Shown here in pieces: positions 20,747 through 25,238 of a DNA stretch of 36,871 bases. How positions within the stretch are numbered: the stretch's first letter is position 1; every line of letters starts with the position of its first letter. The translations under genes and the position numbers were made by a program. Source of the DNA: a virus; IMG/VR virus record IMGVR_UViG_3300030331_005937, positions 1 to 36,871 of that record; one strand, 5' to 3'. Under the pieces are notes generated by a model that saw only the letters and a list, made by a program, of their open reading frames with translations, made no database searches and was not told where the DNA came from.

Positions 20747-21376
20747 ATGTCATTTTGGACAACAGAAAAAGGCAGTGAGCCAAAAAGAAATTACAGGTTT
20801 AAGGTTCAATTTCCGGGCTTTCAAGCCAATCAAGGTGCTTCGGGGCCCGCCGGTACCGATATTGTTTGGTGGGCAAAAAAGGTTACCAAGCCTGCATTTA
20901 CAGTTGGTGAGACAACTCATAAGCTTTTAAATCACACTTTTCATTTTCCCTCTACTGTTACTTGGGAGACCGTAACACTTACTATGGTTGATCCAATTAA
21001 TCCCAGTACCACTAATTTAATGTTGAATCTTCTTCAAACTGCCGGCTATAAACTTCCCGGCCAAACTTTGTCTGAAGGAACTGTAAATAAAGCACTAATG
21101 GGTGTTGCTTTGGGAACAGTAAGCATCATACATTTAGATGCTGACGGTAGCGCACTCGAAACTTGGTCACTTAAGAACGCATTTATTAAGTCTGTTAAAT
21201 TCTCTGATTTAGATTATGATTCCGAGGATCTTTCAACATGCGATCTTGAACTTAGATACGACTGGGCAGAACTGGTCACCGCCGCCGGCACCACAAAGGT
21301 CACTGGGACCGAAACCCCAGCTGGTCCGGCCCAAACGTGGAACTGGGGTGCTCCAAGCACAGCAGAAACCGAATAA
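20747..21376 (+). CDS. 19: Tail tube protein, gp19-like
   Basis: A 209-residue tube subunit following the sheath gene, as in all T4-type phages. The N-terminal part (SEPKRNYRFKVQFPG, and WWAKKVTKPAFTVGE at about 45-59) and the motif VTWETVTLTMVDPINPS fit the tube fold shared by gp19, gp48 and gp54. ALETWSLKNAFIKSVKFSDLDY followed by DLELRYDWAELV is the typical late beta-region. It is longer than T4 gp19 (163), mainly at the Pro/Thr-rich C-terminus. An out-of-frame ATG at 20740 is ignored; AAGGGAG sets the ATG at 20747. Confidence 0.93.
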   Translation: MSFWTTEKGSEPKRNYRFKVQFPGFQANQGASGPAGTDIVWWAKKVTKPAFTVGETTHKLLNHTFHFPSTVTWETVTLTMVDPINPSTTNLMLNLLQTAGYKLPGQTLSEGTVNKALMGVALGTVSIIHLDADGSALETWSLKNAFIKSVKFSDLDYDSEDLSTCDLELRYDWAELVTAAGTTKVTGTETPAGPAQTWNWGAPSTAETE

Positions 21377-21405: not shown

Positions 21406-22269
21406 TTGTCAGTTAGAAACAACGAAGACAGAACAGCTTCTGTCGCAGGTGCAAATTCTCCCGCACCTACACAATCAGGGGGAGATCTACTTTCATTTGT
21501 AAATCCAACTGAATTAGTAGAGCTTCCATCGAAAGGTCTTTTCTATCCCGAGAATCATCCTTTACATAAGGCTGAGTCTATCGAGATTAGACAGATGACT
21601 ACAAAAGAAGAAGAGATTCTTACATCTCAGACACTTTTGAAAAAGGGCGTAGCTTTAGATCGTCTATTGAGCAGCTTAATGCTTGATAAGACAATTGATC
21701 CGGGTACGCTTTTAGTAGGCGATAAAAACGCCATGCTAATCCAAGCCAGAAGAACTGGTTATGGCTCTGATTATAAAACTCAGGTTACATGCCCAAATTG
21801 TAGCACACAATCATCACTAACGTATGATCTTGATAATTGCCAAAATTATGATGGTGGTACCGATTCCGACACTTTGACAGAATTGGGCGCATTGTCAACA
21901 GATAGGCTTACATTTAGAGTTAAATTGCCAATAACTAAAGTTGAGGCAGAAATCAGATTAATGTACGGATACGATGAAAGTGAAATTGTACGAAATCAAA
22001 GAAATAAGGCGAAGAACAAAGACCTTAATTCTGCGATAACAGACAATCTCAAAAGAATTGTGATCGCATTAAACGGCATCGAAGATAGAGCCCAAGTTGA
22101 AGGCTTTTTAGAACAGATGCCAGCGGCTGACGCGCGATATTTAAGAAGAACTATAACACAGCTTACTCCAACAACAAAAATGATGCTTGATTTTGATTGC
22201 TCATCCTGCGGCCATAGTGATGAATTGGAGGTGCCGATTACGGCAAACTTTTTTTGGCCTGACCTCTGA
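21406..22269 (+). CDS. 26: Baseplate hub / tail assembly factor, gp26-like
   Basis: A 287-residue protein of the T4 gp26-type 'base plate protein' family. Key strings are ELPSKGLFYPENHPL (39-53) and IRQMTTKEEEILTSQTLLKKG (61-81). Two CxxC pairs, CPNC (129-132) and CSSC (265-268), probably bind one zinc ion. The start is TTG at 21406 with a GAGG element just upstream. The gene lies between tube and tape measure, the usual place of tail assembly chaperones, and its last 50 codons overlap a +1-frame ORF. In T4, gp26 is needed for hub assembly; a chaperone role here is inferred from position. Confidence 0.82.
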   Translation: MSVRNNEDRTASVAGANSPAPTQSGGDLLSFVNPTELVELPSKGLFYPENHPLHKAESIEIRQMTTKEEEILTSQTLLKKGVALDRLLSSLMLDKTIDPGTLLVGDKNAMLIQARRTGYGSDYKTQVTCPNCSTQSSLTYDLDNCQNYDGGTDSDTLTELGALSTDRLTFRVKLPITKVEAEIRLMYGYDESEIVRNQRNKAKNKDLNSAITDNLKRIVIALNGIEDRAQVEGFLEQMPAADARYLRRTITQLTPTTKMMLDFDCSSCGHSDELEVPITANFFWPDL

Positions 22270-22438
22270 GTATCTTGAGCAAATATACGAGCAATTCTTT
22301 TTCTTAAAATATCATGGTGGCTGGAGTTTTATAGAATGCTATAATTTACCAGTCGGACTGCGAACATGGTTTGTAAAACGACTAATAAAGCAGTTAAAAG
22401 ACGAAAAAGAACAAATGGACAAAGCTTCCAAAAGATAA
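22220..22438 (+). CDS. Overlapping +1-frame ORF, gp51- or chaperone-like C-terminal part
   Basis: The frame encodes SEYLEQIYEQFFFLKYHGGW followed by SFIECYNLPVGLRTWFVKR and a Lys/Glu-rich tail. The composition and the conserved-looking aromatic core suggest a real protein, like short ORFs that follow gene 26 in T4-like phages. The protein-like part starts only at about 22250; no ATG, GTG or TTG lies at or after that point in frame. Upstream starts (TTG 22187, GTG 22217, ATG 22220) lie inside gene 26 and lack a Shine-Dalgarno. The ORF may therefore be expressed as a +1 frameshift extension of the gp26-like protein. The start given is only the nearest ATG. It is far shorter than T4 gp51 (249), so that identity is weak. 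Confidence 0.6.
   Translation: MNWRCRLRQTFFGLTSEYLEQIYEQFFFLKYHGGWSFIECYNLPVGLRTWFVKRLIKQLKDEKEQMDKASKR
22249..22255 (+). other. Candidate +1 frameshift slippery run of seven T
   Basis: In the gp26 frame the run reads AAC TTT TTT TGG. A +1 slip on TTT keeps perfect Phe codon pairing and moves into the GGC CTG ACC TCT GAG frame. A GGAGG lies upstream at 22227-22231. A second possible +1 site is the CTC TGA stop (22264-22269), similar in form to the prfB CTT TGA site. Confidence 0.4.
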
Positions 22439-22446
22439 TATTTACT

Positions 22447-22474
22447 AAGACCGTAAGAAATTACGGTCTTTTTT
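22447..22474 (+). terminator. Strong intrinsic terminator before the tape measure gene
   Basis: AAGACCGTAA and TTACGGTCTT form a perfect 10-bp stem with a GAAA tetraloop, followed by TTTTATT. It begins 8 bases after the +1-frame ORF's stop and should end the sheath-tube-gp26 transcript. Confidence 0.95.
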
Positions 22475-22508: not shown

Positions 22509-25238
22509 ATGGCTGAAGATGATGGCAGTAAGCTTGATAAAATTAAAGCTAGTTTAGAAGGCGCTAAAGATTCATTAATTAATTTTAGTAAAAGTCTAAA
22601 AGATGCCCTTAAAAGTACAGAAGAGCTTACTGATGCGGATCGCATACAGGCCGAGGCCATTAAAGACCTAATTGGTGGTTTTGAGAATCTTAAACAAGTA
22701 CAAGATGCAATCAAAGAAAGCACAGGCGATAATTCTGCTGAAGCAAAAGAATATAGAGCAGAATTAAATAAAATTGCAGCAGCCTTTAAGGAGGCTGAAG
22801 CTGCAGCAAAAGAAATGGAAGGCACCTTTGGTGGCTTGCAATCATCAATGTCAGAACTAGGCTTAAAAGGCTTAGGTGATGCCACCGATGGTGTTGCAAA
22901 ATACATGCAAGCTCAAGAAGAATTAAGAGTAGCACTTGAAGCCGGAACAATTACTCAAGAAAAATATAATAATGCTTTAATGCGGGGAAGAATTCAAATG
23001 GCCCAGTTTGCATTGAGCCCCGCAACCCGTGCTTTTGAAAAAATATTTTCTCAAACTGTAAAATTAGCAACCGCCACCATAGACACTACTAAAGGTCTTC
23101 AAAGATTTTACGGTGCTTCTGATGAGGTAGCCAAAGGTTTGATAAACATGCAGGATCAGACTGTTGGAGCGAATATTGATCTCAGTCGTCTAGGTGTAAC
23201 TTCTAATGAAATTTATAAAGCTTTTGAAACAATGAGAGGTGAATTTGTTTTGTTATCTGGTGATACTATGAAAGCAAATCAAGATTTTATAAAATTTGGT
23301 GCCACATTAGAAAAAGTTGGAGTTGAAACAGCACAATTTGGTAAAACTTCTAATACTCTAAACCGTGTTTTTGGTCAAAACGCCGAAGCTACTAGAGATT
23401 TTGCTTCAGGCTTAAATGATATAGGTGTCGCTCAAGGTCTTGGTCCGGGTGAATTAGTATCAACTTTTAACGAATTATCACCACAAATATTAAAAATAGG
23501 AAAAGATACCTCTGATTTAACTAAAACCATGAATAATTTAGCTTATGCTTCAAGGCAGACTGGAATAGAAATGGGAAGAATTGCAGACTTTGCCGCAGGC
23601 TTTGATACTTTTGAGGGCGCAGCAGATAGAGTGGGTAAATTAAATGCTATCTTAGGTGGAGATTTCTTAAATGTTATGGATCTAATGGCTGAAGAAGATC
23701 CAGCAAAAAGATTTCAAATGATAACTGACGTTCTTAAAGATCAAAATAAAACTTTTCAAGACATGGCATATTATGAAAGATTGGCTATAGCCGAAGCCGG
23801 CGGCTTTAAAGATGTTGGTGAGTTGGCATTAGCAATGTCTGGTAATTTTGATCTAATGAGCAATGCAGTTGTCCAGTCACAAGATTCATTCGTGGAAGCT
23901 GCAAAAAGAGCAAGAAATTTTCAAGAAGTGCAAGAAGAGCTTCAAAATATGTTGGTACAAATTGCCAATACGCCGGGATTCCGTAAATCTGTAATCGGCG
24001 GTATTGAAATGTTTATTGGATTTGTGGATTTTATTGCTCGTCAAGGCAAATTAGTTATTGGAATATTAGGCACTTTAACCATTGTCACTAAAACTTTGGC
24101 CGCGGCCAATCTTTATTTGGCATTTTCAGCAAAAGCTGCGAGTGCCGGCCTAGGCGGTGGTCCAACAAAAATGGGATTAGGCGGAATTGGTGTTATCGGG
24201 GCTTTAATATCTGTCGCTTTTATTATAGCTGTGATAGCATGGGGCTCTAACCTTATTGATGTGGTTTATGCGTTATCTTTTGCGATGATAGCAATTGGTG
24301 TTGCTTCTCGCATTGCTGGCAAAAGTATGAATATGGGAATGGTGAAAGTTCTTCTTGCTCTTGGCGGCGCTGTTCTGCTAGCCATGGCCGGAATTGCCCT
24401 CGCAGCAGAAGGTATTGCATCAATGGCAGACTCTGTATCAAATCTGAATGCAGAACAATTAGCAGGGTTTAATAACGCTCTAATAGGCCTTGTAGGGACT
24501 TTGGCGCTGTTTACGATTGGTATTGTAGCTCTCGGCTTATTCGCCACTGGGCCGCAAATGCTGGGGATTCTCGGCATTGGAGCTGCATTTTTAATGATTG
24601 GAGCCGGAATTGGTGTAGCAGCCGCTGGTATGGGTGTATTTGCGGAAGGAGTCGGAACAGTTGTCGAGGCGGTTGGCTCTCTTGTAGAATCAATGGCTAC
24701 AGGAATTGCAACCATGACAGACAGCTTTGTTAAACTGTTTGATTCAGGAGTCGGTGGTGGTGCACTAATTGGCATGGCTGCTGGATTATTCGCCATGGCC
24801 GCTAGTTTGGTGGTATTTGCAGCGGCACTTGCAATTCTGACACCGGCTGTGTTAGTATTCCAAGGAGTGACAGCTGTTGGTAGGTTATTTGGTGGTGGTC
24901 CAGATGCAGGCGATATGGAATCATTTACAGGAATGATAGAAAGTTTAGCTAACATTAATCCAGACAATTTAACCAAGACAGTAGAGCAGGTTTCGAAATT
25001 GAGAAATGAAATGAGCAATATGATGGAATCTCCAGATATGATTAAAGACTTCACAGACATGCTCAAGGTATTTGAAAGAGATATGCAATTAGCGGCTACG
25101 ATTAATATGCAAGAAAAAGAGCAAAAAGCTGAACTTACAATTACCTCTCCAATTACTATCAAGGTAGATGATAATACACAACTGATAGGTAAGATCGACG
25201 AAAGAGTGTTGGCTAAGCTTAATTTTACTAGAACGTGA
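22509..25238 (+). CDS. Tail tape measure protein
   Basis: A 909-residue protein with the layout expected of a tape measure: a long helical, charged N-terminal half (residues 1-500, many Glu/Lys heptads) and a strongly hydrophobic Ala/Gly/Ile-rich region from about 513 to 790 with several candidate membrane segments (for example GVIGALISVAFIIAVIAWG). The C-terminus is charged and beta-like (LTITSPITIKVDDNTQLIGK). It would set tail length and enter the cell envelope on infection. It lies after a strong terminator, so it needs its own promoter; none is obvious in the 34-base leader. GAGGG at 22497-22501 supports the ATG. The long antisense open frame opposite the hydrophobic region is a shadow. 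Confidence 0.9.
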   Translation: MAEDDGSKLDKIKASLEGAKDSLINFSKSLKDALKSTEELTDADRIQAEAIKDLIGGFENLKQVQDAIKESTGDNSAEAKEYRAELNKIAAAFKEAEAAAKEMEGTFGGLQSSMSELGLKGLGDATDGVAKYMQAQEELRVALEAGTITQEKYNNALMRGRIQMAQFALSPATRAFEKIFSQTVKLATATIDTTKGLQRFYGASDEVAKGLINMQDQTVGANIDLSRLGVTSNEIYKAFETMRGEFVLLSGDTMKANQDFIKFGATLEKVGVETAQFGKTSNTLNRVFGQNAEATRDFASGLNDIGVAQGLGPGELVSTFNELSPQILKIGKDTSDLTKTMNNLAYASRQTGIEMGRIADFAAGFDTFEGAADRVGKLNAILGGDFLNVMDLMAEEDPAKRFQMITDVLKDQNKTFQDMAYYERLAIAEAGGFKDVGELALAMSGNFDLMSNAVVQSQDSFVEAAKRARNFQEVQEELQNMLVQIANTPGFRKSVIGGIEMFIGFVDFIARQGKLVIGILGTLTIVTKTLAAANLYLAFSAKAASAGLGGGPTKMGLGGIGVIGALISVAFIIAVIAWGSNLIDVVYALSFAMIAIGVASRIAGKSMNMGMVKVLLALGGAVLLAMAGIALAAEGIASMADSVSNLNAEQLAGFNNALIGLVGTLALFTIGIVALGLFATGPQMLGILGIGAAFLMIGAGIGVAAAGMGVFAEGVGTVVEAVGSLVESMATGIATMTDSFVKLFDSGVGGGALIGMAAGLFAMAASLVVFAAALAILTPAVLVFQGVTAVGRLFGGGPDAGDMESFTGMIESLANINPDNLTKTVEQVSKLRNEMSNMMESPDMIKDFTDMLKVFERDMQLAATINMQEKEQKAELTITSPITIKVDDNTQLIGKIDERVLAKLNFTRT

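Follow-up and report, generated by a model that had tools for sequence, protein, structure and literature searches.

The DNA stretch analysed here (the window), a virus fragment of 36,871 bases from IMG/VR, carries a gene of the gp26 family (T4_baseplate) in the order tube, gp26-family gene, tape measure, which is the position given to it in the preliminary description. The gene matches PF12322 (T4_baseplate) with E=1.6e-16 and 61 bits (cut-off 24.5) as well as PHROG 150 ('baseplate hub'), so that its original designation as a gp26-like protein holds. Its 3' end is overlapped by a second open reading frame in the +1 frame (22187–22438). The locus comprises the following features:

20747–21376, + strand: tail tube (gp19-like) gene, the upstream neighbour (PF06841, E=3.3e-7; phrog_4542, E=3.7e-25)
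21406–22269, + strand: gp26-family (T4_baseplate) gene in the zero frame, 287 aa, TTG start; putative short chaperone form (TAC-N)
21406–22438, + strand: putative frameshift product, 343 aa, long chaperone form (TAC-NC), with TGGC translated as one step
22181–22183, + strand: +1-frame TGA located 5' of the overlap; this frame opens at 22184
22227–22232, + strand: SD-like GGAGGT, 16 nt 5' of the T-run, candidate stimulator (conserved as TGGAGGT)
22232–22245, + strand: small hairpin (TGCCG-ATTA-CGGCA), candidate stimulator; 3 nt separate it from the T-run
22249–22258, + strand: putative shift site TTT TTT T GGC (Phe-Phe, skipped T, +1-frame Gly codon)
22256–22438, + strand: +1-frame extension domain, 60 aa plus stop, three predicted helices (HMM, phase switch, AlphaFold2)
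22267–22269, + strand: zero-frame stop TGA ending the short form; in relatives, the zero-frame stop lies a few codons past the site
22509–25238, + strand: tape-measure gene, the downstream neighbour (phrog_10613 tape measure, E=4.7e-6)

The end of the gp26-family gene reads AAC TTT TTT TGG CCT GAC CTC TGA and includes the run of seven T's (22249–22255) that had been noticed in the overlap. The zero-frame A-site codon at the putative shift site is TGG (22255–22257), and the extension domain begins (GLTSEYLEQIYEQFFFLKYHGGWSF...) exactly at this TGG. The predicted fusion of 343 aa contains ...ITANFFGLTSEY..., and the window version of the junction peptide is ITANFFGLTSEYLEQ. As first described, the potential starts of the +1 frame (TTG 22187, TTG 22193, GTG 22217, and ATG 22220) are all located inside the gp26-family gene, and none of the four is preceded by an SD 5–12 nt upstream in the window.

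Relatives of gp26 were collected from annotated phages, IMG/VR, and genome contigs, and all frames were scored with HMMs of gp26 and of the extension. The 115 extension-bearing loci were reduced to a non-redundant set of 95 loci (<85% nucleotide identity). In 114 of the 115, two Phe codons close to the gp26 stop are followed immediately by the extension in the +1 frame, and the junction is common also to the cultured phages Mel-JY01 (Microcystis), immuto (Flavobacterium), SP-15 (Bacillus), and RM378 (Rhodothermus). The overlap is far beyond chance, and the recurrence of the +1 junction supports the +1 frameshift that had originally been proposed. A comparison with relatives, which had been suggested as a check, came out in favour of this proposal: the T-run (or a TTTC/CTTT variant) is kept, and in 25 of the 95 loci the +1 frame has no ATG, GTG, or TTG from its preceding stop up to the site. 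Fifteen of the 95 lack a canonical start both before the site and in the first 14 codons of the extension, 13 do not possess even near-cognate starts before the site, and in about fifteen loci a +1-frame stop is located no more than 11 nt from the site. Because no start codon is available, the extension in the start-less loci cannot be made by ordinary initiation.

The reading frame under selection was followed across 83 relatives that align without gaps. Variability is highest at the zero-frame wobble position before the site and at the +1-frame wobble position after it. Substitutions counted among 185 close pairs are distributed over the three phases as 693/516/1485 upstream and 3625/1312/302 downstream, and the change is located between the site and the gp26 stop. 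This switch of the substitution phase at the site indicates that the reading frame under selection changes there, and the view that the +1 frame becomes protein-like only past ~22250 is borne out. After the site, the +1 frame is under strong purifying selection; before the site, it shows no coding constraint.

The codons of the site itself are also constrained. Among the 95 loci, the site reads TTTTTTTGG in 84, TTTCTTTGGC in 4, and TTCTTTTGG in 3, and is of the TTTC/TTTA type in the rest, which belong to distant relatives from Bacillus, Listeria, Streptococcus, and huge phages. When the following bases are included, TTTTTTTGGY accounts for 83 and TTTTTTTGGG for 1 of the 95 loci, and the remainder are TTTCTTTGG, TTCTTTTGG, or TTTY/TTTA variants. 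The second codon is TTT in 90 loci, CTT in 4, CTA in 1, and TTC in 0. All 90 second-codon Phe residues are encoded by TTT, compared with a background of 73% TTT among the Phe codons of the gene (p = 8e-13 on the assumption of independent loci, which is only partly true). The A-site codon is TGG in 91 of the 95 loci, and an in-phase YUUY is present at the first or second codon in every one of them.

The same preference is seen in exact-pattern scans of the whole IMG/VR collection, which used the same flanks throughout (GGYCT was permitted in the TTC.TTT scan, and GGCCT in the others). The seven-T run (T7) had at least 120 matches, TTC.TTT had 91, and TTT.CTT had 37; the patterns TTT.TTC and TTC.TTC had 0 matches each in these scans. 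The slip-site rule is a YTT codon followed by TGG, with the wobble base fixed as T, and such a fixed wobble fits a P-site tRNA that would advance by one base from YUU to UUU. In codon terms, the conserved putative shift site is the Phe-Phe pair plus TGG.

Two other signals were considered and rejected. A −1 heptamer (X XXY YYZ) is not available because a C precedes the T-run in the window and in 72 of the 83 relatives (T in 2), and the extension is in the +1 frame. The preliminary description had also pointed to the CTC TGA at the end of the gene as reminiscent of the prfB shift site. This sequence is present (22264–22269), but its interpretation as a prfB-like shift site did not stand, as both the stop and the codon in front of it differ among the relatives (ATC TGA, AGA TAG, CAA TAA, CGA TGA, and others).

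A conserved nucleotide element precedes the site. TGGAGGT is found at a fixed offset in 64 of the 83 marine relatives, and its Glu codon is GAG in 67 cases and GAA in 1, compared with a gene background of 997 GAA and 616 GAG. GGAGGT is positioned downstream of the candidate +1-frame starts and does not serve them. A role as ribosome-binding site of the +1 ORF was likewise rejected, since at the spacing expected of such a site the +1 frame mostly has TTA, TCA, CGG, or a stop, and few loci have a canonical start there.

Strong constraint on the choice among synonymous codons is confined to the stretch from about −24 to +9 relative to the site. For the 30 nt 5' of the site, folding is more stable than in synonymous shuffles (mean z −1.65, against −0.06 to −0.37 in other segments) and also than in shuffles preserving per-column codon usage (z −4.5, against −1.1 to −1.9 in control segments); the case for a hairpin rests on these energy comparisons with synonymous and position-specific shuffles, which remove the relatedness of the sequences only in part. 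A hairpin of −3 kcal/mol or lower is present just 5' of the site in 65% of the T7 loci, compared with 7% of the control positions, and in 84% of 55 non-redundant loci with a broken run, compared with 5% of the controls. No excess structure (pseudoknot or stem) was found 3' of the site in the relatives, and RNAalifold on the ungapped rows returned no single consensus structure, with both the shape and the sequence of the hairpin varying. Together, GGAGGT and the hairpin would constitute a frameshift stimulator. The least secure point is the spacing of GGAGGT, which at about 20 nt from the slip codon would be too far away for contact of the prfB type if the hairpin did not bring the two closer together.

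Two-frame coding, an exact junction, a constrained slip codon, and a 5' nucleotide element are evident from the comparison of sequences. Very probably, a ribosomal +1 frameshift gives rise to two tail assembly chaperones from one gp26-family gene. Most ribosomes would read gp26 to the TGA at 22267 and release the short form of 287 residues. With tRNA-Phe on the second TTT (22252–22254) in the P site and TGG waiting in the A site, a fraction of the ribosomes would slip one base forward to TTT 22253–22255 and continue with GGC CTG ACC..., yielding a fusion of 343 residues with the C-terminal three-helix domain. In analogy to lambda G/GT, coating of the tape measure would fall to the N-part, and recruitment of the tube protein to the C-domain; the function of the gp26-family gene as a tail assembly chaperone is likewise suggested by analogy.

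An identical fusion would result if RNA polymerase, aided by the nascent hairpin, slipped on the T7 and produced mRNAs that are one U short. The hairpin (22232–22245) followed by AAC and the T7 resembles a weak terminator, and its location beside the T7 is like that of known sites of stem-loop-stimulated transcriptional slippage, a phenomenon reportedly described by Penno (2015; cited in PMC5009743). However, the run is broken (TTC.TTTT or TTT.C.TTT) in at least 128 IMG/VR matches; all of the 117 that were read carry gp26 and the +1 extension, most keep the hairpin, and 18 of the 55 non-redundant loci among them have no start before the site. Moreover, the wobble base of the second codon is T in all Phe cases whereas the first codon varies, which fits the slip of a codon better than that of a homopolymer. 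The retention of the hairpin in run-broken relatives argues for ribosomes rather than RNA polymerase as the slipping machinery, and transcriptional slippage appears unlikely. It is decidedly improbable that the second ORF is a separate gene that is translated from a start of its own (ATG 22220, GTG 22217, or TTG 22187) or by reinitiation after the gp26 stop. The window sequence, with ATG 22220 and GTG 22217 in frame, would by itself be compatible with weak separate initiation, in-frame starts are present in 70 of the 95 loci (accompanied by an SD-like element in 16), and the domain of one huge phage (LR756511) is a coupled ORF of the TAATG type. Such initiation is contradicted by the 25 loci without a start before the site, 15 of which have none early in the domain either, and by the lack of conserved start positions. 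The +1-frame codons after GGAGGT (TTA, TCA, and even stops) and the absence of coding constraint in the +1 frame before the site point in the same direction.

The new frame would also be reached by a −2 slip, which is used by phage Mu (PMC5009743) and would add one Phe. Although the T7 permits TTT to re-pair two bases back, the second codon of TTC.TTTT.GG would land on TCT (a mismatch), whereas a +1 slip would land on TTT; in TTT.CTT.TGG, a +1 slip would again land on TTT (CUU-to-UUU), and a −2 slip must be regarded as very improbable. Short ORFs are common in the DNA of the window, but the chance that the overlap is a fortuitous open frame or an assembly error is negligible: both are excluded by the presence of the same junction in cultured phages and in 95 non-redundant loci and by the strong purifying selection in the +1 frame.

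The N-part and the extension were folded separately with AlphaFold2. When the model of the N-part (pLDDT 88) was compared with the PDB, the HK97 tail assembly chaperone (2ob9) was the sole row above Z 5 (Z 5.8 over 87 residues, rmsd 6.0), a comparison in which middling Z values are common. The extension gave a three-helix model of high confidence (pLDDT 93.5). Viral folds matched it weakly, with no E-value below 0.001, but among them are a tape measure chaperone, a tail assembly chaperone, and Gp51 of cyanophage P-HM1 (TM 0.70/0.77).

Relationships within the family connect the window to the T4 proteins. Both T4 gp26 and T4 gp51 belong to PF12322, and the C-terminus of T4 gp26 (...KEFFELL) contains the same Phe-Phe as the putative shift site. 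In P-SSM4, S-PM2, HTVC008M, Cr30, phiM12, and KVP40, a homologous extension follows gp26 in the −1 frame at T TTT TTY. The window-type extension domain matches these −1-frame extensions of T4-like phages with an HH probability of 96%, and the −1-frame extensions in turn match positions 211–243 of gp51 (E=6e-7 in a single-sequence search); a direct comparison of the extension-domain HMM with the whole of gp51 gave no match. The extension is related to the C-terminus of gp51 by the indirect route of the cyanophage-type sequences, and the link to gp26/gp51 envisaged in the preliminary description is upheld in this form. In the tree, the +1 loci and the T4/−1 group fall on opposite sides of well-supported branches (100/99), with T4 and RM378 on long branches. 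The shared Phe-Phe hinge and the homologous extensions therefore suggest three uses of the same arrangement: T4 relies on two genes, cyanophage-type sequences on the −1 frame, and the clade of the window on the +1 frame.

In several of the −1-frame phages an ATG coincides with the gp26 stop or lies close to it, and a GAGGG-type sequence is present about 10 nt before the T-run in S-PM2, Cr30, and HTVC008M. Affiliation of the window sequence with DUF6760 (PF20546) was rejected at a score of 19 bits, below the cut-off of 27; weak matches to DUF6760 at E≤0.1 are found in 34 of 42 members (best 4.1e-5). A search for relatives in bacterial injection systems via DUF6760 gave no useful matches in 192 genomes of one phylum.

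Frameshifted tail assembly chaperones, lambda gpG/gpGT among them, were reportedly described by Xu, Hendrix, and Duda in 2004 and are reviewed in PMC5009743. The gene in the window resembles lambda gpG/gpGT in its position between tube and tape measure and in the combination of a short form with a frame-shifted C-terminal extension. Its clade displays traits of the lambda G/GT type, namely a conserved extension without its own start (25 of 95 loci) and a conserved slippery site (YTT.TGG). By contrast, lambda shifts by −1, whereas the window gene would shift by +1 with its signal on the 5' side (GGAGGT and hairpin), and its protein belongs to PF12322 and has two CxxC pairs. PF12322, the Phe-Phe at the end of gp26, and the C-terminal extension of gp51 are shared with T4, which uses two genes for the two forms where the window would use one gene and a shift. 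The −1-frame T4-likes (P-SSM4 and others) have the same gene, the same Phe-Phe hinge, and a homologous extension, but the extension is in the −1 frame at T TTT TTY and their clade is separate from the +1 group.

The slip of prfB (RF2) proceeds from CUU to UUU, with a stop codon in the A site and an SD about 3 nt 5' of the slip codon. In both cases a YUU codon would slip one base forward onto UUU, but the A-site codon in the window is UGG instead of a stop, and GGAGGT is located about 20 nt away with the hairpin in between. An anti-SD contact of GGAGGT that is shortened by the hairpin would, in combination with YUU.UGG, represent a new +1 stimulator in a lineage that changed the direction of the shift (−1 vs +1) at the same codon pair; this interpretation is possible but doubtful. 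In the IS630 element of Roseiflexus, a 5'-adjacent stem loop at U5C5 yields transcripts that are one base short (PMC5009743). The window is similar in that a hairpin lies directly 5' of a slip-prone run, but differs in that its family breaks the run in many relatives that keep the hairpin.

A treatment of T4-like chaperone genes by Vladimirov, Gautam, and Davidson in 2022 is said to argue, to judge from its title, for a non-frameshifting mechanism. As indicated by this title and by later papers that cite the work (PMC10274946, PMC12846349), the same authors apparently proposed genes of the gp26/gp51 type as tail assembly chaperones of T4, and this assignment does not appear to be new in itself. 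PMC12846349 also attributes poly-T −1 signals in T4-like chaperone genes to Vladimirov 2022. Frameshifted tail chaperones with shifts of −1, −2, or +1 are already known, with T4 as the named exception among long-tailed phages (PMC5009743). What is new for the gp26/gp51 family is the candidate +1 signal together with its conserved 5' element, and no other papers on the +1 clade were found in the literature searched.

A large clade of PF12322 has a clear +1 signal at the codon pair where T4 gp26 ends, indicating that a lambda-style strategy of tail assembly, thought to be absent from T4-like phages, is very probably present in an uncultured T4-type phage and many of its relatives. The family permits a comparison of three solutions to the problem of making two products (two genes, −1 frame, and +1 frame), and its SD-like element and 5' hairpin belong to a candidate +1 signal that adds to those known. 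The putative long form of the chaperone is absent from many annotations.

Several additional observations concern the gene and its surroundings. The residues C129, C132, C265, and C268 of the window protein form two CxxC pairs that are nearly invariant among gp26-family relatives, which suggests that the chaperone may bind zinc. A strong terminator-like hairpin (AAGACCGTAA-GAAA-TTACGGTCTT, followed by TTTT) is located between the stop of the extension and the tape-measure gene (22447–22470). Terminator-like structures are found 3' of the extension in 35 of 93 relatives, and chaperone and tape measure may therefore be transcribed separately. Neither phage-encoded tRNAs nor Rfam matches were detected within the window. 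Rhodothermus phage RM378, a cultured phage of a thermophile, has TTT TTT TGG with a +1-frame continuation after gp26. The only exception among the 115 loci, the uncultured huge phage LR756511 (595 kb), has a longer gp26 and encodes the extension as a coupled ORF in the −1 frame whose ATG overlaps the gp26 stop (TAATG), which represents another route to two products. In NHDW01000006.1, a contig of 306 kb from a MAG labelled Methylococcaceae, copies of the same gp26 gene lie close to the two ends and point the same way, as expected for a circular or terminally redundant jumbo phage that was binned into a bacterial MAG.
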